This document shows, in pieces, positions 25,177 to 40,580 of a stretch of DNA of 64,000 bases; the first letter of the stretch is position 1; each line of letters starts with the position of its first letter. Both the position numbers and the translations under genes were made by a program. The notes beneath the pieces are model-generated. The model made no database searches and was not told the DNA's origin. It saw only the letters and a list, made by a program, of their open reading frames with translations. The stretch comes from Paenibacillus sp. CAA11 (GTDB lineage: Bacteria > Bacillota > Bacilli > Paenibacillales > Paenibacillaceae): positions 573,001-637,000 of the forward strand of contig NZ_CP028922.1 of assembly GCF_003060825.1 (NCBI RefSeq). The letters are read 5' to 3'.

Positions 25177-26292
25177 TCAATTAGCAAAAGTGTAATCGTC
25201 ATTCGTCTTCTTCAGCATTTGCTTAAAGCCCGAAGTGGCATACAGCTTCTTATCTTTGGTGATAAACAGTGCCTCGGTGTTCGGAATGTTCTCTACAAAT
25301 TTAAGGCCTTCATCTACACCCAGAACAAACGTGGTGGTGGATAAGGCATCCGCATCGGCGGAGCGGTCGGTCACAATGGTGACACTGCTGAGATTGTTAT
25401 CCACCGGGTAGCCCGTCTTGGGATTGATAATATGCTGATAGAGCTTGCCGTTCTCTATGAAAAAGCGCTCATAGATGCCAGAGGTGACAATGGTCTTGTT
25501 ATCGACTGAAATGTTGCCGATCGGATTGCCGCGCTCCTTATCGGGATCCTGAATGCCGATCGTCCAGTTCTTGCCGCCCAGCTTCTGGCCGACGGCAAAG
25601 ACGTTGCCTCCCAGGTCAATGATTGCACTTTTAAAGCCATGTCCAGTAATATAGTCGGCAATAACATCGGCAGCATAGCCTTTGCCGATAGAGCCTAGGT
25701 CAATGCTCATGCCGGCCTCTTCCAAGTAAATTTCGTTCGTCTCCGCTTTCATTTGAATCTTGCGATAATCGCACAGCTTCTGGGCCTTCTCAATCTGATC
25801 AGCCGGAGGCACATGCGCGCCTTCATGGCCAATATTCCAGAGTGTAACCAGGTTGCCGATGGCCGGGTCGAATTGTCCATCGGTCCGCCGGGCATAGTCC
25901 AGCGCCTTGGAGACCAGCTCAAAGGTATCGGCAGAGACCTTCACCGGCGCTTGGCCTGAGGCCTTGTTGACCTTAGAGATCTCACTGACCTCACTGGTCC
26001 GGCTAATTTTGCTGTCAATATCCTCAAGCAGGGAGCGGATATCCTCAAAGTTCTGTTTTTCTGCTTTGTTATCGTAGATTTTGACCGTGACAACCGTATC
26101 GAAGATAAAATAGGTTTCAGACTTCGGGGTCACGTTCGCTGAAGAGCTATCAGCTTTCGCTGAGCTCGATCCCTTAGACTGGGAAGAGTTTGCGCTCGTT
26201 TCCCCGTTTGTATTTCCCCCGCATCCGCTCAGAAGGACAATCATGGCCGTCAAAGCAGCCAGCACAGCGGTTCTTGACTTGGTTAAGTACAT
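25177..26292 (-). CDS. apbE: FAD:protein FMN transferase lipoprotein (ApbE; FmnB-like)
   Basis: 371 residues from the ATG at 26292 after AAAGAGGAACC; the longer frame adds 14 unlikely residues. Lipobox LLSGC (Cys about 24), so it acts outside the membrane. ApbE covalently attaches FMN from FAD to Thr/Ser of secreted acceptor proteins. Seen here: TYFIFDTVVTVKIY at the start of the fold, DLGSIGKGYAADVI and IIDLGGNVFAVG (substrate and metal sites), and a C-terminal TTTFVLG segment with DADALSTT (Mg2+ ligand region). A natural acceptor, the two-domain FMN_bind lipoprotein, is encoded at 39484. Divergent from the eetB-ecf operon. Confidence 0.94.
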   Translation of the reverse strand: MYLTKSRTAVLAALTAMIVLLSGCGGNTNGETSANSSQSKGSSSAKADSSSANVTPKSETYFIFDTVVTVKIYDNKAEKQNFEDIRSLLEDIDSKISRTSEVSEISKVNKASGQAPVKVSADTFELVSKALDYARRTDGQFDPAIGNLVTLWNIGHEGAHVPPADQIEKAQKLCDYRKIQMKAETNEIYLEEAGMSIDLGSIGKGYAADVIADYITGHGFKSAIIDLGGNVFAVGQKLGGKNWTIGIQDPDKERGNPIGNISVDNKTIVTSGIYERFFIENGKLYQHIINPKTGYPVDNNLSSVTIVTDRSADADALSTTTFVLGVDEGLKFVENIPNTEALFITKDKKLYATSGFKQMLKKTNDDYTFAN

Positions 26293-26453
26293 GGCGGTTC
26301 CTCTTTTCTCATAAATTCGACAGAAGTATACCAACTGTGCAATTTAACTGAAAATGAGATATCTCATAATTGAAATATTTTTATGAAAAACTCGTGATTA
26401 AGTGATCGTTTTGTGAAAATAGAAAAATCATCTGGAACAAGCCAGCTACTTCA

Positions 26454-26482
26454 TTGAAGGATCAGGATGGCCCATGTATAAT
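26454..26482 (+). promoter_or_regulatory. Sigma-A type promoter upstream of the eetB operon
   Basis: TTGAAG (26454-26459), 17-bp spacer, TATAAT (26477-26482). It would give a leader of about 160 nt for eetB that contains the palindromes at 26578-26614. Confidence 0.65.
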
Positions 26483-26577
26483 GAGGTTCGCCTAAGATTT
26501 AGGAAATTAAAAAATAAGAGATTTTCCTTGATCGGCCGGGCCTTTTGGCGGATAGGGAGACTTTTAGGAGGGCGGAG

Positions 26578-26614
26578 TGTGATTTTCTTAACAGTTCAAG
26601 TGAAAAAAATCACA
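26578..26614 (+). promoter_or_regulatory. Tandem FNR/CRP-like palindromes before eetB
   Basis: Site 1, TGTGATTTTCTTAACA (26578-26593), and site 2, AGTGA-N6-TCACA (26599-26614), fit the Bacillus FNR consensus TGTGA-N6-TCACA at 9 of 10 half-site positions each. Their centres are 21 bp apart, two helical turns. AATAAT at 26615-26620 is placed so that site 1 would be centred at -41.5. Binding is inferred, not shown. Confidence 0.5.
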
Positions 26615-26649
26615 AATAATATCGGTATAAGGAACAAGGGAAGGGGACG

Positions 26650-27210
26650 ATGATGATGTCGTCATTGCAAGAGGATACAGGCCAGATTCTGAAGAGAACG
26701 GTGATCGTGGCTATCTTTGCTGCGGTTGCGGTGGTTCTCAGTATCGTAGAATCCTTCGTGCCTATGAATATGTCGGTTCCCGGGGCTAAGCTGGGTCTGG
26801 CCAATATTATGGTTTTGACCTGTATGTATTTTCTGCGGGGCCGGGATGCCTTTGTAATGGTAGTGCTTAAGACCTTGCTTACCGCTTTTATATTTGGTAC
26901 ATTCTCCAGCTTTCTGTTCAGCTTCCTGGGCGCCTTGTTCAGCTTTGGTGTGATGTGGGTTCTGCTCAAGCTGGGCAAAGATCGGCTAAGCCTCATTGGC
27001 ATCAGTGTGGCCGGAGGCCTTGCTCACAATATCGGCCAGCTGACTGCTGCCGCCATTATCATTCGTTCATCGGTCATCTTCTATTATTTGCCGATGCTGA
27101 TGCTGATGGGATTGGTTACCGGCATCGGCGTAGGGATCGCGGTGCGCGTACTGATTCCCTCGTTGTCAAAGTTATCCTTGTTCGAGGGTTTTCTCACGGC
27201 AGAAGCGTAG
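26650..27210 (+). CDS. eetB: Gx transporter family membrane protein (EetB-like)
   Basis: 186 residues, six predicted helices. The family is recognised from ESFVPMNMSVPGAKLGLANIM, the GAKLGLAN signature of the Gx transporter (formerly heptaprenyl diphosphate synthase component I-like, PF07456) proteins. In the Listeria electron-transfer locus EetB is this family. It resembles ECF S-components in size and hydrophobicity, and here it is followed directly by ECF genes. Three ATG codons in a row at 26650-26658 follow AAGGGG; the second or third gives better spacing. First gene of an apparent operon running to the UbiA gene. Confidence 0.85.
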   Translation: MMMSSLQEDTGQILKRTVIVAIFAAVAVVLSIVESFVPMNMSVPGAKLGLANIMVLTCMYFLRGRDAFVMVVLKTLLTAFIFGTFSSFLFSFLGALFSFGVMWVLLKLGKDRLSLIGISVAGGLAHNIGQLTAAAIIIRSSVIFYYLPMLMLMGLVTGIGVGIAVRVLIPSLSKLSLFEGFLTAEA

Positions 27211-27247
27211 GGCGCGATTTCGTCAAAGGTGAAAGGGGGGGCTGTAC

Positions 27248-28102
27248 ATGGGAACTGGGGTTGATCGGCCGGGGGCTGCCGCCATTGAGCTGGCAGAAGT
27301 GTCCTTTGCCTACGGGAAAGAGCCGCCGATTCTAAATCAGGTAAGCGCAAGCATTCCCGCAGGGAGCTGGGTATCCATTGTGGGCGCGAATGGCTGCGGT
27401 AAATCCACCTTGGGGAGGTTGATCGGCGGGCTCTTAACCCCAAGTAGAGGGCGGATTGCTATTGATGGTGAGGCCTGGAGCCGAGAATCGCGCGTCCGGC
27501 TGAGGCAGCGGATCGGTATGGTATTCCAGAATCCGGACAATCAGTTTGTCGGAGCCACGGTGGAAGAGGATTTGGCCTTCGGGCTTGAGGGCCAATGTTT
27601 GCCTAGAGCAGAGATGAGCTTGCGGATTGAGCGCTATGCCGCCCTACTGGGTATTCAGGCTTTGCTGAAGAAGCATCCCGGCGAGCTCTCCGGCGGGCAG
27701 AAGCAGCGAATTGCGGCCGCAGCATCGCTGGTTCTTGAGCCGTCCATCCTCATCTTCGATGAAGCCTCTTCCATGCTGGATGAGAAGGCAAGGGCGGACT
27801 GGCTGATGCTGCTGAGAGAAATGAGAAGCAGCGGTGCCTATACGCTGGTCTCCATTACTCATGATGCCGAGGAGATCCTCGCATCAGATCGGGTGCTTGC
27901 CTTGGGTGACGGCGGGCTAGCAGGGGATGTCACGCCGCAGCAGCTGTTCGCGGATTACGGGCTAATGAACGCCTGCCGTATCCGGGCCCCGTTCCGCATT
28001 CAGCTTGAGCATGAACTGAAGTCAGCCTGTGCTGGCTTCCCCGGCCAGCTGCAGGAGGAAGTCATGAAGGAGATATTATGGCCATTACATTCGATCAAGT
28101 AG
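27248..28102 (+). CDS. ecfA1: ECF transporter ATPase A1
   Basis: 284-residue ABC ATPase. Walker A GANGCGKST (46-54), Q-loop VFQNPDNQF (92-100, the NPDNQ form typical of ECF/CbiO ATPases), signature LSGGQ (147-151), Walker B LIFDEA with DEAS, and H-switch THD. With EcfA2 it should form the heterodimer that powers an ECF transporter. It sits 37 bp after eetB and overlaps ecfA2 by 25 bp. The usual bacillar ecfA1A2T copy lies in the ribosomal protein region, so this looks like a second, dedicated module (inference). Confidence 0.93.
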   Translation: MGTGVDRPGAAAIELAEVSFAYGKEPPILNQVSASIPAGSWVSIVGANGCGKSTLGRLIGGLLTPSRGRIAIDGEAWSRESRVRLRQRIGMVFQNPDNQFVGATVEEDLAFGLEGQCLPRAEMSLRIERYAALLGIQALLKKHPGELSGGQKQRIAAAASLVLEPSILIFDEASSMLDEKARADWLMLLREMRSSGAYTLVSITHDAEEILASDRVLALGDGGLAGDVTPQQLFADYGLMNACRIRAPFRIQLEHELKSACAGFPGQLQEEVMKEILWPLHSIK

Positions 28103-28971
28103 ATTATGCCTACGAGGCTAATACGCTGTGGAGGCAGACGGCCCTGCAGGATGTGAACCTGGAGCTGGCAGAGGGCTGTCTGAACGCAATAGCCGGAGCT
28201 TCGGGCTCCGGCAAATCCACACTGCTCCAGCTGTTGAACGGCATTCTGAAGCCAACCGGGGGCAGGCTTCAGGTGCTGGACGTTGAGCTTGCAGCCGGGG
28301 TCAAGCCTCCGAAGCTGCGTGAGCTGCGGCGAAGGGTGGGCCTCGTGTTCCAATTCCCGGAGCATCAGCTCTTCGAGGATACCGTCGAGAAGGACCTTTG
28401 CTTCGGACCGCTGAACTTCGGGCTGTCTGAGGCCGAGGCGAAGGATCGGGCCAGGCAGGCCCTAAGCCGGCTTGGACTCGGCTCGGAGCTGCTGCCCCGC
28501 AGCCCGTTCCATCTCAGCGGCGGGCAAATGCGCAAGGTAGCGATCGCCTCGGTTCTCGCCATGGACCCGGACGTGCTGGTCCTGGATGAGCCGACGGCTA
28601 CACTGGACCCGGTCAGTCGCCATGAGCTGATTCAGCTCCTGTCACGGCTTTGCCGGGAAGAAGGCAAGACAGTCATTGTGGTCACGCACCGTCTTGAAGA
28701 GATGCTCCCTTTCGCGGACCGCTGGGTGATGATGAAGGAAGGGCGCTGCCGATTCCAGGGAACATCGGCGCAGTTGGTGCAGGAAGCGCCGCAGCTGGAA
28801 GCCGAGGGCTTTACGCTTCCTGATTGCATTCATATCTGGCGGCGGCTCGCGGCTGCCTATGGCCTTGAGCAGGAGGAGCCCTGCTTCTCAGCCGGAGAGC
28901 TGGCTGGCCGGATTCGTCAGCTGCTGGAAGAAGAGCAGGGGGCCGCTGCGGCAGCTCAAGGAGGGCAGTAG
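28078..28971 (+). CDS. ecfA2: ECF transporter ATPase A2
   Basis: 297-residue ABC ATPase. Walker A GASGSGKST (40-48), Q-loop VFQFPEHQLFE (90-100, typical of EcfA2), signature LSGGQMRK (146-153), Walker B VLVLDEPTATLD, and H-switch THR in place of THD. An Ala/Gln-rich C-terminus follows. The start ATG, preceded by AAGGAG, lies 25 bp inside the ecfA1 frame, so the two products are translationally coupled. Confidence 0.93.
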   Translation: MAITFDQVDYAYEANTLWRQTALQDVNLELAEGCLNAIAGASGSGKSTLLQLLNGILKPTGGRLQVLDVELAAGVKPPKLRELRRRVGLVFQFPEHQLFEDTVEKDLCFGPLNFGLSEAEAKDRARQALSRLGLGSELLPRSPFHLSGGQMRKVAIASVLAMDPDVLVLDEPTATLDPVSRHELIQLLSRLCREEGKTVIVVTHRLEEMLPFADRWVMMKEGRCRFQGTSAQLVQEAPQLEAEGFTLPDCIHIWRRLAAAYGLEQEEPCFSAGELAGRIRQLLEEEQGAAAAAQGGQ

Positions 28972-28972
28972 C

Positions 28973-29764
28973 ATGCGGAACAAGCTGATGATCGGCCGGA
29001 CCATTGACACCGGCTCCTGGGTTCATACGCTGGATCCCAGAGCCAAGCTGACCGCTATGCTGCTCTATGCTGCGGCGATTATAGTTTGCAGCTCCTGGCT
29101 GTCCTTAGGGCTGATCGCCCTGTTCTCTTTCGGATTCATGGCAGCAACGCGCATTCCCTTCAAATATTATTTGAAGGCGGCGAAGCCCTTATGGGTGCTG
29201 ATGCTGTTCATCCTGCTTGCCCAGACGTTCACAGTCCGGGGCGAAACCATCTGGTTCAGGCTGGGCTCCTGGACGGTTTATCTCGAAGGGCTCAGCCTGG
29301 GCGCGATGTCTTGCGCCCGGATGGCGCTGCTCGTCTCATTCACGGCGCTGCTGACCTTTACCACAACGCCGGGCCGGCTCAATCAGGGGCTAGAAGGCAT
29401 GCTGAAGCCGCTCCGGCGGATTGGAATTTCCTCACAGCGGCTTACGCTGATGCTCAGTATCGCCCTTCGGTTTATCCCGACGATCCTGGAGGAGACGAAC
29501 AAGATCCTGAAGGCCCAGGCTGCACGAGGTGCCGAACTTCGGGAGCTGCCTTGGAAGGAGAAGGGGCGCATGCTGATTTCTCTGCTTGTTCCAGTTACCG
29601 TAGGCGCCTTCCGACGTGCGGAAGAGCTGGTGGTATCCATGGAGGCCAGAGGGTATATCGTAGGGGCTCCGAGATCGGAGTATCAGGTCCTGACCTGGAG
29701 CGGCAGGGAAACGGTGTTTATTGGCTGCTACGTCATGCTTATGGTGACGATGCTGTGGTTATAA
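28973..29764 (+). CDS. ecfT: ECF transporter transmembrane subunit T
   Basis: 263 residues from the ATG at 28973 after AAGGAGGG. N-terminal helices start after the conserved HTLDPRAKL. The two cytoplasmic coupling motifs are seen as QAARGAELRELPW and MEARGYIVG (the A-R-G pairs that contact EcfA1/A2). This completes an A1-A2-T module with no classical S-component beside it other than the EetB-like protein upstream. In Listeria, ECF subunits take part in flavin movement for extracellular electron transfer. Confidence 0.92.
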   Translation: MRNKLMIGRTIDTGSWVHTLDPRAKLTAMLLYAAAIIVCSSWLSLGLIALFSFGFMAATRIPFKYYLKAAKPLWVLMLFILLAQTFTVRGETIWFRLGSWTVYLEGLSLGAMSCARMALLVSFTALLTFTTTPGRLNQGLEGMLKPLRRIGISSQRLTLMLSIALRFIPTILEETNKILKAQAARGAELRELPWKEKGRMLISLLVPVTVGAFRRAEELVVSMEARGYIVGAPRSEYQVLTWSGRETVFIGCYVMLMVTMLWL

Positions 29765-29816
29765 GCGACATCTTGGAATGGAAGTATTTTGTGAAGTCAT
29801 AAGGGGGAGACAAGCG

Positions 29817-31790
29817 ATGGCACGCTATTTTAACGGGAAGGAAATTGAACTGCTGGCGCCGGCAGGGACGTTCGAAATCTTCAAGGAAGTGATTCAGGCA
29901 AATTGTGATGCGGTCTATTTTGGGGGGCCGGGGCTGAATATGCGCCTGATGCGCAAGGGCTACAATTTTACTCGGGAAGAGATGGAAGAAGCGATTGGGA
30001 TTGCGCACGGACTTGGGAAAAAGGTGTATGTGACCGTCAACAACATGCTGAATGAGCAGGAGCTGGAGGAGGCGGCCGAATATTTAACCTTCTTGGCGCA
30101 AATTCAGCCGGATGCCTTGATTGTGCAGGACTTTGCAGTCATTTCTCTGATTCGGGAGCTGCAGCTGCCGCTAAATATCCATTCTTCCGTTATGATGAAC
30201 GCTCACAATATAGAGATGGTTCAAGCCCTTAAGGAGCTTGGCGTAACCCGGGTGGTTACCTCACGCGAGATGGATCTGAATACAACGCGGTATCTGCAGG
30301 CAGTCACAGGCATGGAACTGGAGTATTTTATACATGGAGATATGTGCTCGGTTCATGGTGCTAACTGTTATTTCAGTTCCATGGTCTTTGGCATGAGCGG
30401 CAACCGGGGCAAGTGCATGAAGCCCTGCCGCTGGGACTACCGGGTGAAGAAGGATGGCAATGTGTATCCGACCGAGTATCCCCTTGCCGTTAAGGATATG
30501 TTCATGTATGAGCACATCCCGGAGCTGATTCAGGGCGGGATTACTTCCTTCAAAATTGAAGGCCGCATGCGGGACGTATCCTTTGTCCTCATGCTCGTGA
30601 ACAGCTATGGGGACGCGATCGACCGCTATATCGAGGATCCGGTCGGATTCGACCGCAGCAAGGATACGAAGCTGCTGTTCGAGAACCGCAAGCGCGATTT
30701 CTCCACCGCCTATGCCTTCGGAACTCCAGGGCTGTCCAATATTAACAAACGGTACGAGGGAACCGGGAAGTTCTACAGTACCGGCAAGGTGTTCAGCACC
30801 CCGGCCGAGGAGCGAGAGATCAAGGAAGAACGCCTTCAGACGGTCCGCGATCGCTTAAGCGCGGCGAAGCGCGCGGAGGCAGCCGCCCATCAAGGGGAGC
30901 TGTCCGTACATGTGAATAATATGGCTCAGGCCCAGGCGGCTTTAGACGCAGGAGCGGATCATATTTACCTGTCTGGGGACGTCTATGAACCAGACCACCC
31001 CTTTACCAAGGCGGAGATCAAGGAGCTCGGGACCCTAAAGAGGACGTCCAAGATCTACTTAGGTCTTCCGCGGATGATGACCGAGCTGCATTTTGAACAG
31101 TATGACGGCCTGCTTTCCGGGGAGCGTCTGCCGCTTGATGGAATTCTCGTTACGAATGTGGGGGCGGTTCGCAGGTTTGCAGGCAAGGGTTATCCTCTGA
31201 TTGGGGATTTCAATCTGAATATCTATAACAACCTGGCTGCGAAATTTTACCGGGAGCGTGGAGTAGGGCGGTTCACAGCCTCGATCGAGGCGCCGCTGGA
31301 GGATTTCGCGCGTCTGCTTGAGACAGGTGAGGGGCCGGTAGAGGTGATCGTGCACGGCTCTCCGGCAATCATGTATATGGAGCATGATCTTTATCAGAAT
31401 GCGGAGGTCTTTCAGGCTATTGCCGAAGAGGATAACAAGTACGTCTCCAACGATGTGCTGGTGCTGATGACCGACAAGGGAGAAAGCCCAGTGTACCGGG
31501 ATGTGCATGGCCGCTGCCATCTGACCTTGGCCAAGGAGCTCTGCCTGCTGCCGCTCGTGAAGGAACTCCAAGAGGCCGGTACGACCCATTTCCGTATCGA
31601 AGGCGCTACCTATCGTCCGGAGCAGCTTAGTACGATAGTGGGAGCTTACCGCCGCGTGCTGGATCGTCCAGAGCTTGCTGCGGAGGAATTCGCCCGCCTG
31701 TCTCCTATCTATGCGGGATATACGCTTGGGGCACTGCAGTTCAACGGAACGCCTGCCGCAGCCGGAGCTAGAGCGGAGGTGCTGGCATGA
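29817..31790 (+). CDS. U32 family protein with Fe-S-type cysteines
   Basis: 657 residues from the ATG at 29817 after AAGGGGGAG. The U32 barrel begins ELLAPAGTFEIFKEVIQANCDAVYFGG. A cysteine set characteristic of Fe-S U32 proteins is present: CSVHGANC (about 177-183) and CMKPC (about 200-204). The C-terminal half repeats a barrel-like fold. U32 members include tRNA/rRNA hydroxylation proteins (TrhP, RlhA) and UbiU/UbiV, which hydroxylate quinone precursors without oxygen. The genes around it (EetB, ECF, UbiA) would suit a quinone role, but length and layout are nearer to the RNA-modifying type. Overlaps the next gene by ATGA. Confidence 0.85.
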   Translation: MARYFNGKEIELLAPAGTFEIFKEVIQANCDAVYFGGPGLNMRLMRKGYNFTREEMEEAIGIAHGLGKKVYVTVNNMLNEQELEEAAEYLTFLAQIQPDALIVQDFAVISLIRELQLPLNIHSSVMMNAHNIEMVQALKELGVTRVVTSREMDLNTTRYLQAVTGMELEYFIHGDMCSVHGANCYFSSMVFGMSGNRGKCMKPCRWDYRVKKDGNVYPTEYPLAVKDMFMYEHIPELIQGGITSFKIEGRMRDVSFVLMLVNSYGDAIDRYIEDPVGFDRSKDTKLLFENRKRDFSTAYAFGTPGLSNINKRYEGTGKFYSTGKVFSTPAEEREIKEERLQTVRDRLSAAKRAEAAAHQGELSVHVNNMAQAQAALDAGADHIYLSGDVYEPDHPFTKAEIKELGTLKRTSKIYLGLPRMMTELHFEQYDGLLSGERLPLDGILVTNVGAVRRFAGKGYPLIGDFNLNIYNNLAAKFYRERGVGRFTASIEAPLEDFARLLETGEGPVEVIVHGSPAIMYMEHDLYQNAEVFQAIAEEDNKYVSNDVLVLMTDKGESPVYRDVHGRCHLTLAKELCLLPLVKELQEAGTTHFRIEGATYRPEQLSTIVGAYRRVLDRPELAAEEFARLSPIYAGYTLGALQFNGTPAAAGARAEVLA

Positions 31791-33106
31791 GCAGCTATAT
31801 CGGACCGGAAGAGGTTATTCGCAAGCGGCAGGAATACTTCTATCCTTGCACCAGTCATTTCTATCGCCGTCCCCCTCAGATCGTCAAGGGAGAGATGCAA
31901 TATCTCTACGGGCATGACGGGAAGCGCTACACCGATTTCTTCGCCGGGGTTTCCGTTGTAGCCTGTGGACACTGCAACCCGGTAATTGCCGGGGAGACTG
32001 CCCGGCAGCTGCAGGAGCTGCAGCATACGTCGACCATCTACCTGACCCAGCCGAATGTGGATCTTGCTGAGCGGCTGGCCGATGTCCTGCCCGGCGAACT
32101 GCGCCGCTCGTTCTTCTGCAACAGCGGGTCGGAAGCCAATGAGGGCGCGCTGCTGCTGGCCCGCATGTACACAGGGCGCCGGGAGTTCATCGCACTGGAG
32201 TACGGCCTGCATGGCCGGACTTATCTGACGATGAGCGTAACCGGGCTGCCGATGTGGCGGACTGATCCGGAGCTGGCTCACGACCGGGACGTTACCTTTA
32301 TTCCGCGGCCCTTCTCCAGGGACTTGTCCAAGGATGAGGCTGCGCACCGATCTTTGAAAGCGCTGGAGGCGGTGCTGGCCGAGAAGGGCAGCCGGATCGC
32401 CGCGATGATTGCCGAGCCAATTCAGGGCAATGGCGGCATGATCTCCCCGCCGCAGTGGTATTATCCGGAGGTGAAGCGGCTGCTGGCGCAGCACGGCGTA
32501 CTGCTGATCGCCGATGAGATTCAGACCGGCTTCGGCCGAACAGGGCGGATGTTCGCCATGGACCACTGGGGCGTTGTTCCCGACATCTTGACCATGGCGA
32601 AGGCGCTGGGCAGCGGGATTCCGATCGCTGCCTTCGCCACCACGGACGAGATTGCTGCCAAGCTGAACCGGCCATCGGCCTCCACCTTTGGCGGCAATCC
32701 GGTCTCGTCGGTGACGGCGATGGCGGTACTCGATTTCATCGAGCGGCACCGCCTGCCTGACCGCGCTGAGAAGCTGGGCCTTCTGCTTCGCGAAGGGCTC
32801 GAGGAGCTGGCCGCCTTCTATCCGTCAATTGTGACGGATGTGCGCGGTGCCGGCCTGATGCTTGGTGCAGGGATCGCTGAGGATCAGCCCGAGCTTGGAG
32901 CGCAGCTGACAGATGATATTCTGGAAGCGATGAAGGACCGGGGCTTTATGATCGGGAAGAATGGCGTGGACCGCAATGTGCTGGCCTTCCAGCCGCCATT
33001 GGTTCTGACCGAGGAGGATATCCATGAGATGCTTGCGGCATTAAGAGAGACTCTGCAGGGGCTTCAAGAAGGAGCCGGTGCCGAAAGCCGACCGGGGGGG
33101 CGGTGA
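31787..33106 (+). CDS. Class III PLP-dependent aminotransferase
   Basis: 439 residues. The class III (ornithine/GABA/alanine-glyoxylate) pattern is complete: FCNSGSEANEGALLLAR (cofactor phosphate site), LIADEIQTGFGRTGRMFA (PLP ring Asp) and TMAKALGSGIP with the Schiff-base lysine at about 271. The closest known types are AGXT2-like and 4-aminobutyrate aminotransferases; the substrate is not predictable. GGAGG lies just upstream inside the U32 frame, and the start overlaps the U32 stop by four bases, so it belongs to the same operon. Its link to electron transfer is unclear. Confidence 0.9.
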   Translation: MSSYIGPEEVIRKRQEYFYPCTSHFYRRPPQIVKGEMQYLYGHDGKRYTDFFAGVSVVACGHCNPVIAGETARQLQELQHTSTIYLTQPNVDLAERLADVLPGELRRSFFCNSGSEANEGALLLARMYTGRREFIALEYGLHGRTYLTMSVTGLPMWRTDPELAHDRDVTFIPRPFSRDLSKDEAAHRSLKALEAVLAEKGSRIAAMIAEPIQGNGGMISPPQWYYPEVKRLLAQHGVLLIADEIQTGFGRTGRMFAMDHWGVVPDILTMAKALGSGIPIAAFATTDEIAAKLNRPSASTFGGNPVSSVTAMAVLDFIERHRLPDRAEKLGLLLREGLEELAAFYPSIVTDVRGAGLMLGAGIAEDQPELGAQLTDDILEAMKDRGFMIGKNGVDRNVLAFQPPLVLTEEDIHEMLAALRETLQGLQEGAGAESRPGGR

Positions 33107-33110: not shown

Positions 33111-33986
33111 ATGCACATTGCGGCTGCAGTTTATCGCAAAGCTAAGCTGTTCGGCGAGCTGGTTATGTTCTCGCATACACTGTTCTCGTTGCCGTTCGCT
33201 ATTATTTCAATGGTATGGGCAGCAGGAGGCATGCCCTCCTGGCGGGTCATTATTTGGGGACTGATTGCGCTGGTCGCTGCCCGCAACGGGGCTAATGCCT
33301 TGAATCGTGTGGCGGATCGCGTCTTCGATGAGCTGAATCCAAGGACGGCAGGAAGGCATTTGCCGCGGCGGCTGCTGGACTCCCGGGAGGTTATGATATT
33401 TGTAGTGGTTAACTATGCGATATTTATCGCTGCTTCCGGAATGTTAAATCCATTATGTCTGGCATTGTCACCCGTAGCGATCTTCCTGATCTCCTCATAC
33501 TCTTATACCAAGCGTTTTACGTACCTGAGTCATCTGTACTTGGGGTTTGTCATCGCGTCTGCGCCGATCGGAGCCTGGTTTGCCGTAACAGGACAATTCG
33601 CCTTTACACCGTTCGTGCTTGGTACGGTTGTGATGCTGTGGATTGCAGGCTTTGACATTATTTACGGCACACAGGACATTGAATTCGACAGGTCCCAGGG
33701 CCTGTGGTCGATTCCTAGCTATTTCGGATTGAACCTTGCGCTCTGGATCGCCAAAGGGCTTCATTTTATCATGGTGCTGTTGCTGTTGTTCCTGTATGTG
33801 TTCCGTGATCTCGGATGGTTGTATTTGACGGGAATCGGAATCGCTGTATTGCTGCTCCTGGCAGAGCACAACATTATTAAGCCGACGAACAAGAGGCTGA
33901 TGCATATTGCGTCCTATAATCTGAACCAGGTGATCAGCATGGTGATTCTGTTCTGTACGCTCGGGGATTATTTTCTGGTGAATTGA
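33111..33986 (+). CDS. UbiA family polyprenyltransferase (DmkA-like role)
   Basis: 291 residues from the ATG at 33111, four bases after the aminotransferase stop. Eight or nine helices. The first Asp-rich motif is NRVADRVFDELNPRTAGRHLP (about residues 64-84) and the second YGTQDIEFDRSQGLWSIP. This is the UbiA/MqnP pattern, not the MenA pattern, so the aromatic acceptor may be a 4-hydroxybenzoate-type or futalosine-pathway intermediate. In the Listeria electron-transfer locus a prenyltransferase (DmkA) makes demethylmenaquinone; a similar role is inferred here. Last gene of the operon, ended by a hairpin at 34017-34053. Confidence 0.88.
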   Translation: MHIAAAVYRKAKLFGELVMFSHTLFSLPFAIISMVWAAGGMPSWRVIIWGLIALVAARNGANALNRVADRVFDELNPRTAGRHLPRRLLDSREVMIFVVVNYAIFIAASGMLNPLCLALSPVAIFLISSYSYTKRFTYLSHLYLGFVIASAPIGAWFAVTGQFAFTPFVLGTVVMLWIAGFDIIYGTQDIEFDRSQGLWSIPSYFGLNLALWIAKGLHFIMVLLLLFLYVFRDLGWLYLTGIGIAVLLLLAEHNIIKPTNKRLMHIASYNLNQVISMVILFCTLGDYFLVN

Positions 33987-34016
33987 ACATGCCTTGTTAA
34001 GTTAGAGTCTAAAGAG

Positions 34017-35055: not shown

Positions 35056-35787
35056 CTACCTGTTATAATGCGCAGGATTCTGCTGCGGCCCGTAAGCGCC
35101 TTGAGCATAGGCGGTATAGGCTTGCGGATTGTAGCCGTAAGGAGCATAGCTTGACTGGCTATAGCCCTGCTGATGATAGGTTGGCAGGGGATAAGGCTGC
35201 CCTGTCTGACCATACTCTGCGGGAGAAGCATATGCTGCTCCGGTTGGCGGGCAGTCCTTCGGCATCGGCGGACCGATGATCGTGGTCTGCTGAATGGGGG
35301 CCAGCGCTTCCCGCATCAGCGGTTCGTTCAGGCCATAGGCATGAGTCCAGGCGTGAGGCGGCGTTAACCGCAAAATGTCTGAGCCGAAGATCACCTCCGG
35401 CGTATCCGTGTCAAAGATAGCCAGCAGGTGGGTGCGAGGCGTGGTCGCAATCTCGTAATGCCACCAGCCTTGCGGTACATTGGCAACCTGGCCAGGCTTG
35501 ATGGGCAGCTCGATGAGCTCTTTTCTAAATGGGTCCATGAGGGAGACAACCGCCTCCCCGGAAATGCAGTAGACGAGTTCGGAGGCATTCTGGTGATAAT
35601 GCGGCTCTACGACGTTTCCTTGGGTCAAGTAGATATCCAGCAGTGAGCTGCTGCCTAGGGATTTTAGCTGTTGAATGCCTAGTGCCAGAATGTAGTTATG
35701 AGGGTCCTTTTGGTAAAAGACGTTATACCTTAAGTCATAGGTGAATTCTCCGGCGTAAGGGGTGTGCTGTACGTGAGGGATGGTCAA
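35056..35787 (-). CDS. Cupin-domain protein with Tyr/Gln/Pro-rich tail
   Basis: 243 residues from a TTG start, eight to nine bases after AGGGAG. The cupin core is clear: EPHYHQNASELVYCISGEAVV (first metal motif) and ANVPQGWWHYEIA (second). It is followed by a linker and a low-complexity tail of about 60 residues rich in Tyr, Gln, Pro and Gly (TYHQQGYSQSSYAPYG). Cupins with such tails occur among oxalate decarboxylase-like spore coat proteins of bacilli, so a spore-surface role is plausible but not shown. Single gene downstream of the hepS-hepT terminator. Confidence 0.78.
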   Translation of the reverse strand: MTIPHVQHTPYAGEFTYDLRYNVFYQKDPHNYILALGIQQLKSLGSSSLLDIYLTQGNVVEPHYHQNASELVYCISGEAVVSLMDPFRKELIELPIKPGQVANVPQGWWHYEIATTPRTHLLAIFDTDTPEVIFGSDILRLTPPHAWTHAYGLNEPLMREALAPIQQTTIIGPPMPKDCPPTGAAYASPAEYGQTGQPYPLPTYHQQGYSQSSYAPYGYNPQAYTAYAQGAYGPQQNPAHYNR

Positions 35788-35883
35788 TTTTCATCTCCCT
35801 GCCTTTCGTGAATTACTGGGTAAGAACCTATGCCCTCAATGTATTCATGGATATGGGCGATTGTCACAAGTGATTTAACACAA

Positions 35884-35925
35884 AACGCCGAGCCCCCAAA
35901 GAATAGAAGGACTCGGCATTTTATA
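35884..35925 (-). terminator. Terminator of the pplA-ndh2-hepS-hepT unit
   Basis: On the minus strand, TGCCGAGTCC pairs with GGGCTCGGCG and is followed by TTTTGTGTT. It lies 25 bp past the hepT stop. Confidence 0.8.
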
Positions 35926-35949
35926 ATATTGCATTAGTTTGTATTAGCT

Positions 35950-36930
35950 TCAATAACTACGGCCTGCAAAATAGTTAAGCAGCACACGAAGATCCTGATG
36001 GGCCGGATAATCGGCCAACTGCAGAATGATAGCCTCAGCCTCACCCAGGAACTGCTGGCTGAGCGATTCTGCGCGTTCCAGTGCGCCGCTGGCAGTAATG
36101 GCGGCGAGCACGAGCTCTACCTCTTCGGCAGAGGAGGCCGGACCGATGGAACGGATGAGCGGGGCAAGCTCTGGATCTTCCAAAGCATACAGCACGGGAA
36201 GCGTGACCTGACCCTGCCTAAGGTCGCTGCCTGCCGGCTTGCCCAGCTGCTGGGAGGAGCTGGTGAAGTCCAGAATGTCATCCCGGATTTGGAAGGATAG
36301 TCCGAGCTTCTCTCCAAAAGTGTACAGCAGCTCGGCTGTCTCATTTGTTGCTTTGGCTGCTAAGGCGCCGATCTTTAAGCAGGAGGCGATAAGCTGGGCG
36401 GTTTTGTTCTTCGATTTCGCCAAATAATCGTCCAGGGTCTGATTATAATCGAACGCGTGGGACAGCTGCTGATATTCCCCGATGCACAGCTGGGTTGTAG
36501 CGATCGAAGAGAGATCATAAGCATAGCGCTCTCGCTCAGCGGAATAGATGGAGATCAGCTCAATCACCCTGGCCGACATATAGTTGCCGATATGAATGGC
36601 CTCCTGGACGCCGAACTGCATGTGCAGAGCAGGTTGGCCGCGCCGCATAGGAGAGTTGTCGATCACATCATCGTGGATTAGTGAAGCGGCGTGAATAAAC
36701 TCGGCGGCTGCGGCCAATCTGAGCAGCTTGCCCTTGTCCGGAGACGGGCCGAAGCGGCTGCCTACGAGAACCATTAACGGCCGCACCCGCTTGCCGCCGG
36801 AGCGGACAAGCTGTGTAATGCCGCGGGCAATAACTGAAGACCTGGGGACATCCTTATCCAGTTTGACGATATGTTCAATTTCTCGGTCGATGGATTTCAC
36901 GGAGAGGTTCAGTGCTTCGTCCAGCTTCAT
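35950..36930 (-). CDS. hepT: Polyprenyl diphosphate synthase, large subunit (HepT; DmkB-like role)
   Basis: 326-residue trans-isoprenyl diphosphate synthase. Both Asp-rich motifs are present: LIHDDVIDNSPMRRG (FARM) and DDILDF (SARM), with GGKRVRP near residue 48 for substrate binding. Together with the HepS-like protein encoded just upstream it should make heptaprenyl diphosphate, the side chain of (demethyl)menaquinone. The DmkB gene of the Listeria electron-transfer locus is of this family. The main menaquinone copy (beside menG in bacilli) would lie elsewhere, so this is probably a dedicated paralogue. Confidence 0.92.
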   Translation of the reverse strand: MKLDEALNLSVKSIDREIEHIVKLDKDVPRSSVIARGITQLVRSGGKRVRPLMVLVGSRFGPSPDKGKLLRLAAAAEFIHAASLIHDDVIDNSPMRRGQPALHMQFGVQEAIHIGNYMSARVIELISIYSAERERYAYDLSSIATTQLCIGEYQQLSHAFDYNQTLDDYLAKSKNKTAQLIASCLKIGALAAKATNETAELLYTFGEKLGLSFQIRDDILDFTSSSQQLGKPAGSDLRQGQVTLPVLYALEDPELAPLIRSIGPASSAEEVELVLAAITASGALERAESLSQQFLGEAEAIILQLADYPAHQDLRVLLNYFAGRSY

Positions 36931-36984
36931 AAGATTCCCTCCAGTAATGTGACTAAGGCAAATGGATCGTTTCTAGTCATCGTC

Positions 36985-37431
36985 TTAAATGGCTTGAACA
37001 GTAGGGTGATTCCGCTCAGCTTCGAGCTGCAGAAAATTCTTCATGCCTTTCAGCAACAGCTCATCGGCCGGATGTCCTTCTGTACGATGGATTTGAATTT
37101 GTTTGACCGTTCTGGCCAGAGCTTGGAGAAGATCGTATTCTCCCCATTTCAGAGCCAGCTGCATGTAAAAGCTGTATAGATAGTCGCCGTCCAGCACACT
37201 GCGGGTTAGCTCCATGCCAGAGCCCTGACAGCAGTCATGCCGAAGGAGGGCGAACTTGATTGCAAGGTAAAGGGATAAAAGACGGGTCTGACGGGTCTTC
37301 GTGATGCTAGAGCGTTGAAGCATTTGTGCCATAGGCAGCAGCTGCTCCTGGCTGATATCCAGAACAATGCCGGCCTCGGGCGACAGTTCGCCCTGCAATA
37401 AATTTATTGCATCTTGTATGAGTTCAGTCAT
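36985..37431 (-). CDS. hepS: Heptaprenyl diphosphate synthase component I-like (HepS)
   Basis: 148 residues, shorter than Bacillus HepS (about 250). The central segment VLDGDYLYSFYMQLALKWGEYDLLQALARTV fits the HEPPP_synt_1 pattern (L-x-GDY-x-S...LA...GD...I..LA). The small subunit sets chain length by pairing with HepT. It lies 54 bp upstream of hepT on the same strand, preceded by AAGGAGTG. Its own promoter region is tiny, since the ndh2 terminator ends only about 40 bp upstream, so expression probably relies on readthrough. Assignment is by pattern and context. Confidence 0.7.
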   Translation of the reverse strand: MTELIQDAINLLQGELSPEAGIVLDISQEQLLPMAQMLQRSSITKTRQTRLLSLYLAIKFALLRHDCCQGSGMELTRSVLDGDYLYSFYMQLALKWGEYDLLQALARTVKQIQIHRTEGHPADELLLKGMKNFLQLEAERNHPTVQAI

Positions 37432-37470
37432 CTTAAGGCACTCCTTACCCGCACCGATGTCGGCGTTGTT

Positions 37471-37508
37471 AAAAAGGGGAGTAATGCGTTAATCCGCATT
37501 ACTCCTTT
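37471..37508 (-). terminator. Terminator between ndh2 and hepS (possible attenuator)
   Basis: On the minus strand, AAAGGAGTAATGCG pairs with CGCATTACTCC and is followed by CCTTTTT. Only about 40 bp separate it from hepS, so it probably lowers hepS-hepT expression and does not isolate it. Confidence 0.75.
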
Positions 37509-37550
37509 GATGTTTATGGGAGAAATTTAATCATCAATCATGATATGACT

Positions 37551-39428
37551 CTATTCGGTATAAAGGTACCATTTCCTCACAATAGGGATACGGCGCCACT
37601 GCTTCTTAAGCCATGGAAGCACATAATAGTCCAGACCGAACATGCTGCCCGATCCGCCGATCAAAGCGATGCCTGCGGCGAGGTACCATAGCATCTCTGT
37701 CGATGCCATGCTGGAGCTCCAGATCATGATGCCTAGACCGACTGTGGCGATGGAAGATATTGCGGTGAACAATCCGACAATCAGCAGTACACCGATACAG
37801 ATCTCTGCGATGACCATACAGAATTGGAATACGGTAGCCAGGCTGGTGTAGCCGCCATCGGCATTATAGAAGAAGATATCCATGAAGCCGTTAACCATGT
37901 TGGTAATAAAGTGCGGTACTGGCATAGCCTCTACGGCTTCCTTGGCACTGGTGACCGCTGAAGCGGCTGTTTGAGCATCTACGGTCGTCGATACCGCTTC
38001 CGAAGCCTGACTGGCTGCTGTTACAGCATCCGAGGCGTGGGGGGAAGGCGGGATCAAGAAGATGTTATTAGGATCTTTCCAAATCTTCGGCAGCTTATCC
38101 AGCCCTTCGGCCAGCCACTTATAGCCCACAAAAACGCGAAGCGGAAGCAGCCAGAAGTTTGGGGAGCGCTTGGAGAAATGCCCGCCCACAAAGCTGCGAC
38201 GGTTGTTCACATGGAAGAACTCATGCATCATGTAGGTCCATACTTTGTTGAACCCGGCAACCGTAAATAAATAATACAAATTGATCAGGTGCTTACAGAA
38301 CATGGCGAAGAATCCGCTGACTTGGAACATCTTATTCGGAAGGCCGACGTTGGCAACGCCATAGCGGCTGCCGATGCTGACCATGGTGCCGTGGAAGCCC
38401 GGTTTGTAGGATTTCTTCGGTTTGCCATGAACGTCTGCATAAATGTTGTGAGCGATCAGAGGTCCTGCCTGCTCCGCATTCTCAACCATTTGCGGAACGG
38501 GGCGCGTCTCGCCTTCAGGAATATAGAAGATGTTATCGCCAACGACATACACATCTTCATGATCTATGCTCTGCAGCTTGTCATTGGTGACAATCCGCTT
38601 GCGTCCCTGCTGCTGCACGTCCAGGCTGCCCACGAGATCCGAGCCCTCGACACCTGCGGTCCATACGATAGTGTCCGCTTCGAGCTCCTTCTCACCGAGC
38701 AGTACGCTGTCTTTGGTCACGCCCGTAATCTTGGCGCTAGTAATAATCTCTACGCCCTTCTTCTCCAGATAGCGTGCGGCTTTAGCAATAAGCTTGTCAG
38801 GCAGAATTGGCAGGATCTTCGGTGCCATATCCGCTACAACCAGACGCACTTCTTCGCGCTTGATATAGAACTCCTTGCAGAGTTCATCGCGGAATTCTGT
38901 CATCTCACCGATTAATTCCACCCCGGTAAAGCCTGCTCCAACGACAACGAAGGAGAGTTTCTTGCGTCTGATCTCAGGATCAGTCTCCTTGGCCGCTTCT
39001 CCGAACTTCTGGCGGATCTGGGCCTTCAGGCGAATAGCATCCTCATAGGACCATAGGGTCAGTGAATTCTGTTCGGCACCCGGGATGCCAAAGAATGTAG
39101 GCTTACATCCTGTACCGATGACCAGGTAGTCGTAGTCATAGACGGTCTCGCTTGAGCGCAGCTGTTTGGCTCCAAAGTCGATGGTCTCGATATTGTCGAG
39201 CACCACATCTACTTTGCGGCCTTCGAACATCTTCTTCAGCTCAATCTTCACCGAGTCTTCAGGGGCACGGTTTGCAGCAACCTCGTGCAGCTCTGTGAGG
39301 AGCGTATGATACGGGTTGCGGTCTATCAATTGAATCTGTATATCTTTGTCTTTCTTGAATTTCTTGGCCAGATGCTTACCGGTGACAACGCCGCCGTAAC
39401 CGCCGCCAAGGAGTACGATTTTCTTCAA
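37551..39428 (-). CDS. ndh2: Type II NADH dehydrogenase with C-terminal DoxX-like membrane domain (Ndh2 of EET)
   Basis: 625 residues from the TTG at 39428 after GAAGGTGA; a GTG three codons upstream lies inside that site. Residues 1-400 are an NDH-2: FAD site LLGGGYGGVVTGKHL, NADH site VVGAGFTGVELIGEM, and VYVVGDN. An Ala/Thr/Ser-rich linker (about 470-505) leads to a four-helix DoxX/terminal-oxidase-like part (about 510-610). Ordinary NDH-2 enzymes are about 400 residues. A ~626-residue form with an added membrane domain is characteristic of Ndh2 in the Listeria extracellular electron transfer locus. It should pass electrons from NADH to demethylmenaquinone. Downstream of the FMN-binding lipoprotein, 46 bp away. 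Confidence 0.92.
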   Translation of the reverse strand: MKKIVLLGGGYGGVVTGKHLAKKFKKDKDIQIQLIDRNPYHTLLTELHEVAANRAPEDSVKIELKKMFEGRKVDVVLDNIETIDFGAKQLRSSETVYDYDYLVIGTGCKPTFFGIPGAEQNSLTLWSYEDAIRLKAQIRQKFGEAAKETDPEIRRKKLSFVVVGAGFTGVELIGEMTEFRDELCKEFYIKREEVRLVVADMAPKILPILPDKLIAKAARYLEKKGVEIITSAKITGVTKDSVLLGEKELEADTIVWTAGVEGSDLVGSLDVQQQGRKRIVTNDKLQSIDHEDVYVVGDNIFYIPEGETRPVPQMVENAEQAGPLIAHNIYADVHGKPKKSYKPGFHGTMVSIGSRYGVANVGLPNKMFQVSGFFAMFCKHLINLYYLFTVAGFNKVWTYMMHEFFHVNNRRSFVGGHFSKRSPNFWLLPLRVFVGYKWLAEGLDKLPKIWKDPNNIFLIPPSPHASDAVTAASQASEAVSTTVDAQTAASAVTSAKEAVEAMPVPHFITNMVNGFMDIFFYNADGGYTSLATVFQFCMVIAEICIGVLLIVGLFTAISSIATVGLGIMIWSSSMASTEMLWYLAAGIALIGGSGSMFGLDYYVLPWLKKQWRRIPIVRKWYLYTE

Positions 39429-39483
39429 AAGGCTCACCTTCTTTACTTAAACTGACTTCTCGGTAGGTCGTTCCTAAGCCGAA

Positions 39484-40398
39484 TTACTTGGCTTGCTCAA
39501 GAGCTTTGCCTGCAAGCTCGAAGTACTCTTTCAAATGAATAGTAGCACCGGAGATGGCGTCAGTTTTGCCTTCAGCATCGAAAGTGATGTCGGCAGGATC
39601 TTGCTTTTCAACAAGATAAGCTTCAGCTTTGGCTGCTTCTTCATGCCATTCTGCTTGAGCGCCGCCAGCCTTCATGCCGTATTTACCTTCCATGGAATTC
39701 GTCTTCTTGTCTTCGCCTTTGGCGTTCACACCGCTGAAGTTCACCTTCACGATCTTGCCTGCAGCCACAACAACGTCAACAGTGGATTTCCAGCCGGATT
39801 CTTTGTCAAAGTCAGCGCCTTCGGCATGATAAGTGCCGTCTTTGTACTTACCTGCTTCTACAGGACCTGCGCTAAGCGCTTTCTCAGCCAGCTGGAAAAA
39901 CTCGCCTACGTGGATGGATACGCCGGAGATGGCATCGGTCTTGCCTTCATTATTAACGGTTACGGCTTTAGGATCTTGCTTCTCCACCAGATAAGCTTCA
40001 GCTTTCTCGGCTTGTTCATGCCATTCGGAGGAAGCGCCGCCGGCTTTCATGCCGTATTTACCGTCTTTGGAGTAGGTAACTTTGTCTACGCCTATTTTCT
40101 CATTAGTTGCATTCCATTTGGCATCCGTGATTTTGCCCCCGGATACGGTAAGCACAACGTAAGATTGCCAGCCTGTCTTGGCGTCAGGTTCGCCTTGAGC
40201 GAAATAAGTGCCGTCCTTATAAGTGCCTTCCGCAGCTTTGTCGGTACTTGCGTTCGTGCTGCCTGAATTGGTTGTAGTGGCTGGGGCACTGTTCCCATTC
40301 GCAGACTTATTGCTGTTGCCGTTATCGGAACCGCAGCCTGCCAGAAGTCCCAAGAGCAGAGCACTGCTGAGAATAACGGATGTTTTTTTCATGTTCAT
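39484..40398 (-). CDS. pplA: FMN-binding lipoprotein with two FMN_bind domains (PplA-like)
   Basis: 304 residues from the ATG at 40398, eight bases after GGAGG. Lipobox LLAGC (Cys about 21), then a Ser/Thr/Asn-rich linker of about 40 residues and two tandem FMN_bind domains that repeat each other (KYGMKAGGA, EWHEQAEKAEAYLVEKQDP in both). The flavinylation motifs are DAISGVS (domain 1) and DAISGAT (domain 2); FMN joins the last Ser/Thr through ApbE. PplA of Listeria is a two-domain lipoprotein of this kind and carries electrons to extracellular Fe(III) or other acceptors. First gene of the pplA-ndh2 operon. Confidence 0.93.
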   Translation of the reverse strand: MNMKKTSVILSSALLLGLLAGCGSDNGNSNKSANGNSAPATTTNSGSTNASTDKAAEGTYKDGTYFAQGEPDAKTGWQSYVVLTVSGGKITDAKWNATNEKIGVDKVTYSKDGKYGMKAGGASSEWHEQAEKAEAYLVEKQDPKAVTVNNEGKTDAISGVSIHVGEFFQLAEKALSAGPVEAGKYKDGTYHAEGADFDKESGWKSTVDVVVAAGKIVKVNFSGVNAKGEDKKTNSMEGKYGMKAGGAQAEWHEEAAKAEAYLVEKQDPADITFDAEGKTDAISGATIHLKEYFELAGKALEQAK

Positions 40399-40437
40399 GA
40401 TCATGACCTCCAATTAATATGAAAAATAATTTATATA

Positions 40438-40459
40438 TTAAAATGTGTAGACATTTTAA
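40438..40459. repeat. Palindrome in the pplA leader
   Basis: TTAAAATGT-GTAG-ACATTTTAA, perfect 9-bp arms, about 40 bp before the pplA start and within the predicted leader. It could be an operator or an mRNA hairpin. Confidence 0.6.
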
Positions 40460-40537
40460 TAACAAAAGTAAGGGGAAAGACCTAAGAAGTAGGAAGGGGA
40501 AAGGCCTGAAGGTAGTTTGAATTTACCAGTCGAGGGC

Positions 40538-40580
40538 ATTTTAGCATATAAAGTATTACCCTTATGTGAAAAAAATCACT
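40538..40580 (-). promoter_or_regulatory. FNR/CRP-type activator site and promoter of pplA-ndh2
   Basis: The 16-mer at 40565-40580 reads AGTGATTTTTTTCACA on the minus strand (TGTGA-N6-TCACT on plus), 9 of 10 to the FNR half-site consensus. An extended -10, TGCTAAAAT, has its hexamer at 40543-40538. The distance puts the palindrome centre at exactly -41.5, and there is no good -35 hexamer: the class II activator layout. Start site expected near 40531, giving a leader of about 130 nt. Confidence 0.65.

Follow-up and report, generated by a model that had tools for sequence, protein, structure and literature searches.

Does the flavin-based extracellular electron transfer (EET) locus of Paenibacillus sp. 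CAA11 have a quinone of its own, and do the genes that seem to be inserted in it help to make that quinone? The locus spans positions 25177-40413 of the 64,000-nucleotide stretch that was analysed (the window, bases 573001-637000 of one 4.89-Mb contig; completeness 99.99%), and a first description based on the letters alone (the sequence-only reading) had presented it as a split EET locus with a dedicated quinone pool. We conclude, with a probability of about 70%, that this is an EET locus of the FmnB/PplA/Ndh2 kind known from Listeria, in a variant that is widespread in Paenibacillaceae, and that the most likely role of an embedded trio of genes, coding for a U32-family protein, a class III aminotransferase (AT3) and a UbiA-like prenyltransferase, is to make or modify the quinone of the chain. 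The earlier observation was confirmed, and its interpretation is partly supported. Papers are cited by PMC identifier.

Pfam recovers all of the genes named in the sequence-only reading where they had been placed (Table 1); U32 and AT3 had not been named there. ApbE, on the minus strand, is followed on the plus strand by EetB, EcfA1, EcfA2, EcfT, U32, AT3, UbiA, and an MBL-fold gene, and then on the minus strand by a cupin gene, HepT, HepS, NDH2, and PplA. The two arms, EetB to UbiA and PplA to HepT, converge and do not diverge as had been proposed; ApbE and EetB form the sole divergent pair. With the likely start codons, the seven genes from eetB to ubiA overlap or are separated by at most 52 bp, and this tight spacing suggests a single transcript.

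The reference for comparison was a Listeria monocytogenes record, filed among plasmids, which carries an annotated EET locus (fmnA, dmkA, fmnB, pplA, ndh2, eetA, eetB, dmkB). Six window proteins match their Listeria counterparts with 27-40% identity, FmnB, PplA, Ndh2, EetB, FmnA/EcfT, and a HepT/DmkB-type protein all being alignable. Unlike in Listeria, the window locus includes EcfA1 and EcfA2, lacks EetA, has its DmkA elsewhere, and contains the additional U32-AT3-UbiA trio. The assignment of ApbE as FmnB is sustained by its identity to the Listeria protein and by its top solved-structure match, entry 7esa (267 bits), which we take to be Listeria FmnB. A tree built from the N-terminal part separates 15 long Ndh2s, including those of the window, Listeria, and Enterococcus, from the three short NDH-2s of the same genome (Shimodaira-Hasegawa-like approximate likelihood ratio test, SH-aLRT, 99); the window protein falls in the EET clade, as the sequence-only reading required, on a comparison confined to these few, long-branched short NDH-2s. 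The long side splits into a Listeria/Enterococcus type and a Paenibacillaceae/Acetoanaerobium type. One genome outside the genus (G039; we label genomes G and loci L) has two EET-type loci (L048 and L049); one belongs to the Paenibacillaceae type, whereas the Ndh2 of the other is of the Listeria type. The DoxX-like tail ascribed to Ndh2 was borne out as a hydrophobic stretch, residues 530-574 lining up with 532-574 of Listeria Ndh2, but as a domain it gives a sub-threshold DoxD match.

Profiles were compared across 59 relatives, the window's own genome included, 36 of which belong to the genus. Of the 59 genomes, those with a long NDH2 (>860 bits) and those with EetB are the same 34, namely 31 of the 36 genus members plus G039, G040, and G056, and ApbE scores above 270 bits in the same 31 genus members, the other five having none or one below 175 bits. 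This grouping of EET genes is not due to chance. Fifteen same-genus loci were fetched, of 30 available besides the window's own, and in all of them the order EetB-EcfA1-EcfA2-EcfT-U32-AT3-UbiA and then HepT-HepS-NDH2 is unchanged, with ApbE adjoining EetB in eight. The MBL-fold and cupin genes are found in none of the 15 and were rejected as parts of the system, no homolog being present in the other loci searched. The earlier remark on unrelated inserted genes is therefore right for these two and wrong for U32 and AT3, which are conserved. Among the 59 genomes, the 31 EET-positive genus members, and no others, have a U32 above 640 bits; once second pieces of the same U32 genes are set aside, no other listed match exceeds 188 bits. 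AT3 (>670 bits, next best 244 bits) and the locus UbiA (>460 bits, next best 288 bits) are each found in 30 of the 31; the sole EET-positive member without them, G026, is an assembly of 450 contigs with 85% completeness. At these scores, U32, AT3, and UbiA are absent from the five EET-negative genus members.

A scan of named genomes with the U32 matched 107 stretches (93 relatives), of which 80 were kept, 71 from Paenibacillaceae and nine from other groups; the named records with the nearest U32 relatives belong to Fontibacillus and Paenibacillus. Denominators for these named loci cover those with enough flank. Loci from the relatives' genomes and from named records are partly duplicates (e.g., L035 and L070), and counts of distinct sequences, loci or regions drop identical copies. 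U32, AT3, and UbiA follow one another in that order in each of the 62 Paenibacillaceae loci whose right flank is long enough, EetB-EcfA1-EcfA2-EcfT lies upstream of the trio in 66 of the 70 with enough left flank, and NDH2 is present in 50 of the 58 with 9 kb of right flank. A plasmid search with the same U32 returned 11 records, all below 60% identity and covering at most 51% of the query.

The nine loci outside Paenibacillaceae come from Clostridium, Geosporobacter, and one Bacillus metagenome-assembled genome (MAG). Five Clostridium loci (L125, L130, L131, L136, L137) show the run U32-AT3-UbiD-UbiA-UbiX-binding protein-ABC-permease, and Geosporobacter (L127) has U32, AT3, UbiD, UbiA, UbiX, and importer genes in a different order. 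C. intestinale (L128) has no UbiD or UbiX between the trio genes, C. paridis (L123) has U32-AT3 alone, and in the Bacillus MAG (L126:4615-12059) U32-AT3-UbiA is followed by NiFe uptake hydrogenase genes. In Clostridium sp. CS001, which has the same run (U32-AT3-UbiD-UbiA-UbiX-SBP-ABC-permease, SBP being the binding protein), UbiD passes the menaquinone decarboxylase model TIGR03701 (612 bits, cut-off 495.9), UbiX likewise passes its model, TIGR00421, and the binding protein resembles NMT1/SsuA. These assignments come from Pfam for six CS001 proteins and its U32, and from NCBIfam for four CS001 proteins and two L126 hydrogenase proteins; the other Clostridium runs were recognized from the start of each translation. 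EetB, NDH2, PplA, and ApbE have no match in the fetched flanks of these nine loci. The trio accompanies prenylquinone enzymes even where no EET genes are nearby. We propose that it is a separable unit which produces or alters a prenylquinone that serves in EET.

The residues of the trio are consistent with chemistry on a quinone ring. U32 is a single chain of about 657 residues, and its four cysteines (C190, C197, C213, and C217, numbered on the longer open frame starting at 29778) are kept in 87 of 87 distinct sequences. Their spacing equals the CX6CX15CX3/4C motif to which [4Fe-4S] binding has been ascribed, as a proposal, in the U32 family; UbiU and UbiV, of the same family, have a role in O2-independent hydroxylation of ubiquinone precursors (PMC6747719). 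Compared with four Escherichia coli U32 proteins, the window protein scores 174 bits with RlhA, 133 with TrhP, and 115 with UbiU, with no match to UbiV at 1e-4; in a tree with long branches, the trio U32s form their own clade, to which the RlhA group is nearest. They resemble UbiU/UbiV in the family, the four-Cys motif, and the company of UbiA (in Clostridium also of UbiD and UbiX), but differ in being a single chain nearest to RlhA; the scan of the locus proteins revealed neither another U32 nor an SCP2 protein. A single-sequence structure prediction of U32 was set aside (mean predicted local distance difference test score, pLDDT, 47). In AT3, K272 and D243, presumably the lysine and aspartate that hold pyridoxal phosphate (PLP) in the class III fold, are kept in 84 of 84 distinct sequences. 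With these Fe-S and PLP residues retained, ring hydroxylation by U32 and ring amination by AT3 are possible.

The UbiA of the locus shares 42-45% identity with three MqnPs, matches DmkAs at best with an E-value of 0.003, and groups with MqnP in the tree. We therefore reject its identification as DmkA, which the sequence-only reading had favoured: at 1e-4, BLASTP does not match it to either of two Enterococcus DmkAs, it lies on a separate side of the tree, and the DmkA homolog of this genome is unlinked. No Listeria DmkA open frame was obtained from the fetched stretch, and the DmkAs of Enterococcus, Acetoanaerobium, G039, and G040 were used instead. The link to the futalosine pathway (MqnP, MqnL/UbiD, MqnM/UbiX) extends to the CS001 run, with its MqnL-type UbiD and its UbiX. 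Such a link might mean that the trio is a second MqnP-type branch toward menaquinone or demethylmenaquinone, in which U32 and AT3 are dispensable or regulatory and no new quinone is made. The MqnP-like UbiA, the CS001 UbiD above its TIGR03701 cut-off, and the futalosine family PF02621, present in 36 of 36 genus members, all agree with this explanation. Nevertheless, U32 and AT3 have kept their cofactor residues and, in Bacilli as in Clostridia, their place close to UbiA; this would be surprising for a dispensable pair, and we regard the second branch as rather unlikely. The trio is separate from the housekeeping MqnP cluster, and U32 and AT3 are not known to be part of the futalosine pathway.

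That housekeeping cluster, hepS-menG-mqnP-ubiX-mqnA-hepT, lies away from the EET locus; the mqnA/ubiX context belongs to its MqnP copy, the second one, at C1:2767894, and not to the EET-locus UbiA. The UbiA, HepS, and HepT of the EET locus are accordingly extra copies of prenylation steps. HepT is 35% identical to Listeria DmkB, yet the tree does not join the two. One EET-negative genus member (G032, L149) has retained a HepT that belongs to the EET clade and may be what is left of an EET locus since lost. The DmkA homolog lies at C1:4475519-4476487 and is 56% identical to the DmkA that adjoins the EET locus of G040, and homologs above 280 bits are present in 25 of the 31 EET-positive and in 0 of the 5 EET-negative genus members. 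MenD passes its curated cut-off solely in G039 and G044, the genus members falling below it, so that DmkA seemingly has no classical supply of 1,4-dihydroxy-2-naphthoic acid (DHNA) of its own. By inspection, a relative of UbiA with a binding protein of a similar kind behind it is also present in G040, where neither U32 nor AT3 accompanies them. The HepS, HepT, and UbiA paralogs make a dedicated quinone pool plausible, and its chemistry may not be that of demethylmenaquinone.

Table 1. Features of the EET locus, in window coordinates.
Feature	Position	Strand	Evidence
FmnB-type ApbE lipoprotein (FAD:protein FMN transferase)	25177..26292	-	PF02424 302 bits; 38% to Listeria FmnB; lipobox LLSGC
Two one-mismatch boxes just upstream of eetB, role doubtful	26578..26614		motif search
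EetB, substrate-binding subunit of putative FAD exporter	26650..27210	+	PF07456 149 bits; 40% to Listeria EetB
ECF ATPase EcfA1	27248..28102	+	TIGR04520 279 bits, under cut-off 315
ECF ATPase EcfA2	28078..28971	+	TIGR04521 323 bits, slightly under cut-off 330
EcfT/FmnA-type transmembrane subunit	28973..29764	+	PF02361 (CbiQ/EcfT) 123 bits; 36% to Listeria FmnA
U32-family protein	29817..31790	+	PF01136 291 bits; C190-x6-C197-x15-C213-x3-C217
Class III PLP aminotransferase AT3	31787..33106	+	PF00202 341 bits
UbiA-like prenyltransferase, MqnP paralog	33111..33986	+	UbiA Pfam 177 bits; TIGR01475 270 bits, cut-off 180.8; tree
HepT-like polyprenyl diphosphate synthase, paralog of housekeeping copy	35950..36930	-	PF00348 (polyprenyl_synt) 223 bits; own clade
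HepS-like subunit	36985..37431	-	PF07307 24.6 bits; homolog at same place in 15/15 fetched same-genus loci
EET-type Ndh2 with C-terminal hydrophobic domain, 628 aa	37551..39437	-	Pyr_redox_2 134 bits; 38% full-length to Listeria Ndh2
PplA-like lipoprotein, two repeats with DAISGVS and DAISGAT	39484..40398	-	PF04205 (FMN_bind) 33 bits; 27% to Listeria PplA
CRP/FNR-type palindrome before pplA (TGTGA-N6-TCACA with one mismatch)	40565..40580		motif search

Apart from the trio, the plus arm carries genes for an energy-coupling factor (ECF) transporter. EcfA1 and EcfA2 are two ABC ATPases by Pfam, and the full set of EetB, FmnA, and EcfA/EcfA' for export of flavin adenine dinucleotide (FAD) is present by homology, both ATPases scoring below their cut-offs. 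In Listeria, EetB-FmnA-EcfA-EcfA' exports FAD, and deletion of eetA gives no EET phenotype (PMC9973259). Since the same set exports FAD there, the window genes are best read as an FAD exporter and not as a system for flavin uptake; the earlier proposal of ECF flavin transport holds for the components, which match Listeria EetB and FmnA, and is revised as to export (PMC9973259). EetA, part of the Listeria set invoked earlier, has no match in the window or in the loci of its nearest relatives (L033, L034, and L035/L070). A genus-wide absence of EetA was rejected, as an alignment of the eetB upstream regions shows eetA in most loci looked at, and EetA (NusG_II) lies upstream of EetB in 67 of 71 distinct EetB loci: eetA has been lost in the window and its nearest relatives. 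Distant from the EET locus, at C1:2.074-2.077 Mb (L145:5754-9116), the genome has a second ApbE with a NusG_II (EetA-like) protein close by.

In PplA, the presumed substrate of ApbE, the motif D-x-x-[STA]-G-[AVTI]-[TS] is found twice; 52 of 54 relatives of the window protein also have exactly two copies, a count that keeps identical sequences. Two close relatives (L034 and L035) retain ndh2, the FAD exporter, and the trio and have no pplA match in the fetched stretch; a profile search found no FMN_bind protein in their genomes (G009 and G025), and the same search also overlooked the pplA of G018. Elsewhere in the window's own genome, at C1:4654.1-4655.9 kb (L144:6108-7916), a FAD_binding_2 reductase-like protein adjoins a 118-residue FMN_bind lipoprotein, with two-component-like genes upstream; this pair is a second candidate client for flavinylation. 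It is one reason to consider that the locus mainly serves other flavinylated extracytosolic reductases, of the fumarate- or urocanate-reductase-like kind, with PplA as one client and metal reduction as a secondary activity. Many FMN_bind matches in the relatives fall within open frames of 600-700 residues, and eetB and apbE are described as accompanying several flavinylated systems (PMC9973259), both of which speak for such clients. The pair is, however, distant from the EET locus, and the gene beside ndh2 is pplA, and not one for a reductase, in 13 of 15 same-genus loci and in 40 of 58 right flanks of named loci. We find it quite improbable that reductases are the main clients.

The upstream regions suggest how the locus might be controlled. 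With no more than one mismatch allowed, the 64-kb window contains three copies of the palindrome TGTGA-N6-TCACA, which we take to be of the CRP/FNR type, where 1.1 are expected and 10 of 100 shuffles reach three. All three boxes are at the EET locus, two before eetB and one before pplA. Allowing one mismatch, the pplA box is found in 45 of 47 distinct upstream regions (shuffles 0.7%) and the eetB box in 38 of 69. The conserved eetB-upstream box was set aside, because in the eetA-bearing loci looked at the site is inside the eetA reading frame, so that it may reflect protein-coding conservation. Before U32, the box occurs in 19 of 88 distinct regions (shuffles 0.9%), that of the window having none. 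It is perfect before U32 in all four Paenibacillus loci that carry the trio without exporter genes (L110, L112, L118, and L133) and in the Bacillus MAG, and no U32-upstream box is found in the Clostridium or Geosporobacter loci. As the exporter-less trio of Bacilli shares the box of pplA, a further, regulatory, tie between trio and pplA is suggested. Other genes tested have the box in 0-2 regions each, except ApbE (6/31) and AT3 (6/86). The candidate box may place these genes under oxygen control. No site in the locus matches the Rex box with up to three mismatches; the Rex consensus overlaps the TGTGA-N6-TCACA palindrome (PMC2883068). The rest of the window holds a group II intron at 53515-55332 (Rfam matches to D1-D4 parts and to the Intron_gpII family), a purine riboswitch at 62710-62810, and a match to the BsrC small RNA family at 21266-21352.

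From gene content and order, homology, co-occurrence, and conserved cofactor residues, all of them observed, we infer the reactions of the locus, the kind of quinone, and EET activity in this strain as follows. Ndh2 would pass electrons from NADH to a membrane quinone, and the quinol would reduce flavin mononucleotide (FMN) bound covalently to PplA, and also free flavins or other flavinylated proteins; reduced PplA and flavins would in turn reduce outside acceptors such as Fe(III). EetB-EcfA1-EcfA2-EcfT would export FAD, and ApbE/FmnB would attach FMN to PplA. The HepS and HepT paralogs would supply the quinone tail, UbiA would prenylate an aromatic acid, which UbiD/UbiX-type enzymes would decarboxylate, and changes to the ring would fall to the Fe-S U32 protein and the PLP aminotransferase. 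A bolder version, which we regard as a long shot, is that U32-AT3-UbiA(-UbiD-UbiX) is an undescribed O2-independent route of Bacillota in which U32 hydroxylates the ring and AT3 aminates it at that position, giving a rhodoquinone-like low-potential carrier. In Paenibacillus this carrier would push electrons toward flavoproteins at the cell surface, while an imported aromatic acid would be its precursor in some Clostridia.

Several findings weigh against a Listeria-kind locus in which the trio provides the quinone. On the side of EET, several exporter models and the PplA model remain under their curated cut-offs, PplA with 88.5 bits against 325 for the NCBIfam model, and weak points are also the HepS match (24.6 bits, cut-off 30) and the DoxD match of the Ndh2 tail (19.5 bits, threshold 22.7). 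EetA is missing from the window locus, and PplA is found in 13 of the 15 fetched same-genus loci, not in L034 or L035. On the side of the trio, the five EET-negative genomes may share a single loss, in which case the co-occurrence rests on few independent events. The EET loci of G039, G040, and G056, outside the genus, are without the trio, and conversely the exporter genes are missing beside the trio in the four Paenibacillus loci with a perfect U32 box; to the right, L110 and L118 lack NDH2 and HepT as well, the stretches of L112 and L133 ending too early. U32 is nearer to the rRNA hydroxylase RlhA than to the quinone enzyme UbiU. Finally, with a DmkA homolog elsewhere in 25 of the 31 EET-positive members, the window genome included, the EET quinone could be made without the trio.

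The last points could be combined into another explanation, that EET runs as in Listeria on demethylmenaquinone, for which the unlinked DmkA homolog would use scavenged DHNA, and that the trio is a neighbouring operon, serving for example RlhA-like RNA hydroxylation and ordinary metabolism. The proximity of U32 to RlhA, the distribution of DmkA (25/31 against 0/5), and the trio loci without exporter genes in Paenibacillus or without EET genes in the fetched Clostridium flanks are as this explanation predicts. It has more difficulty with the joining of U32-AT3 to a prenyltransferase in 62 of 62 Paenibacillaceae loci and 8 of 9 others, six of these with UbiD and UbiX, and with the palindrome that stand-alone Bacilli trio loci share with pplA. 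Moreover, MenD below its cut-off in the genus would make DHNA uptake necessary, and another long U32 protein, which includes a DUF3656 domain, is encoded separately in the window's own genome (G000). We consider a mere neighbouring operon unlikely and retain the reading in which the trio acts on the quinone of the EET chain.

The EET locus itself has a precedent in Paenibacillus sp. Cedars, in which seven of the eight Listeria EET genes are in one operon with ecfA1-ecfA2-ecfT, with dmkA elsewhere, and which reduces Fe(III) minerals, as measured (PMC10373932). The window locus is similar in having ecfA1-ecfA2-ecfT among the EET genes and dmkA elsewhere, but differs in lacking EetA, which is counted in the Cedars operon. 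As both the operon and Fe(III) reduction have been published, the window locus is not new: the EET locus and its likely function are already known, and the U32-AT3-UbiA trio is the part worth following. The main text of that paper contains neither U32 nor futalosine nor, at the start of a word, menaquinone, and its two mentions of "aminotransferase" stand in figure legends on other genes (PMC10373932). A search of the open-licence literature, by title and start of abstract, returned nothing on a U32-aminotransferase-UbiA set in quinones or EET. A parallel for AT3 is rhodoquinone synthesis by RquA, since placing an amino group onto a quinone is one possible role of AT3; unlike AT3, a PLP-dependent class III aminotransferase, RquA is a homolog of methyltransferases that uses S-adenosylmethionine (PMC9814641).

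For the known EET system, the window adds one more genome, and its added value is the trio. It also carries a warning, that a UbiA protein in an EET locus is not automatically a DmkA. According to a 2026 survey, many Bacillota seem to have no quinone pathway, and further quinones may still await discovery (PMC13386864). The trio is a defined, conserved gene set, tied to EET, that could make or alter such a quinone.

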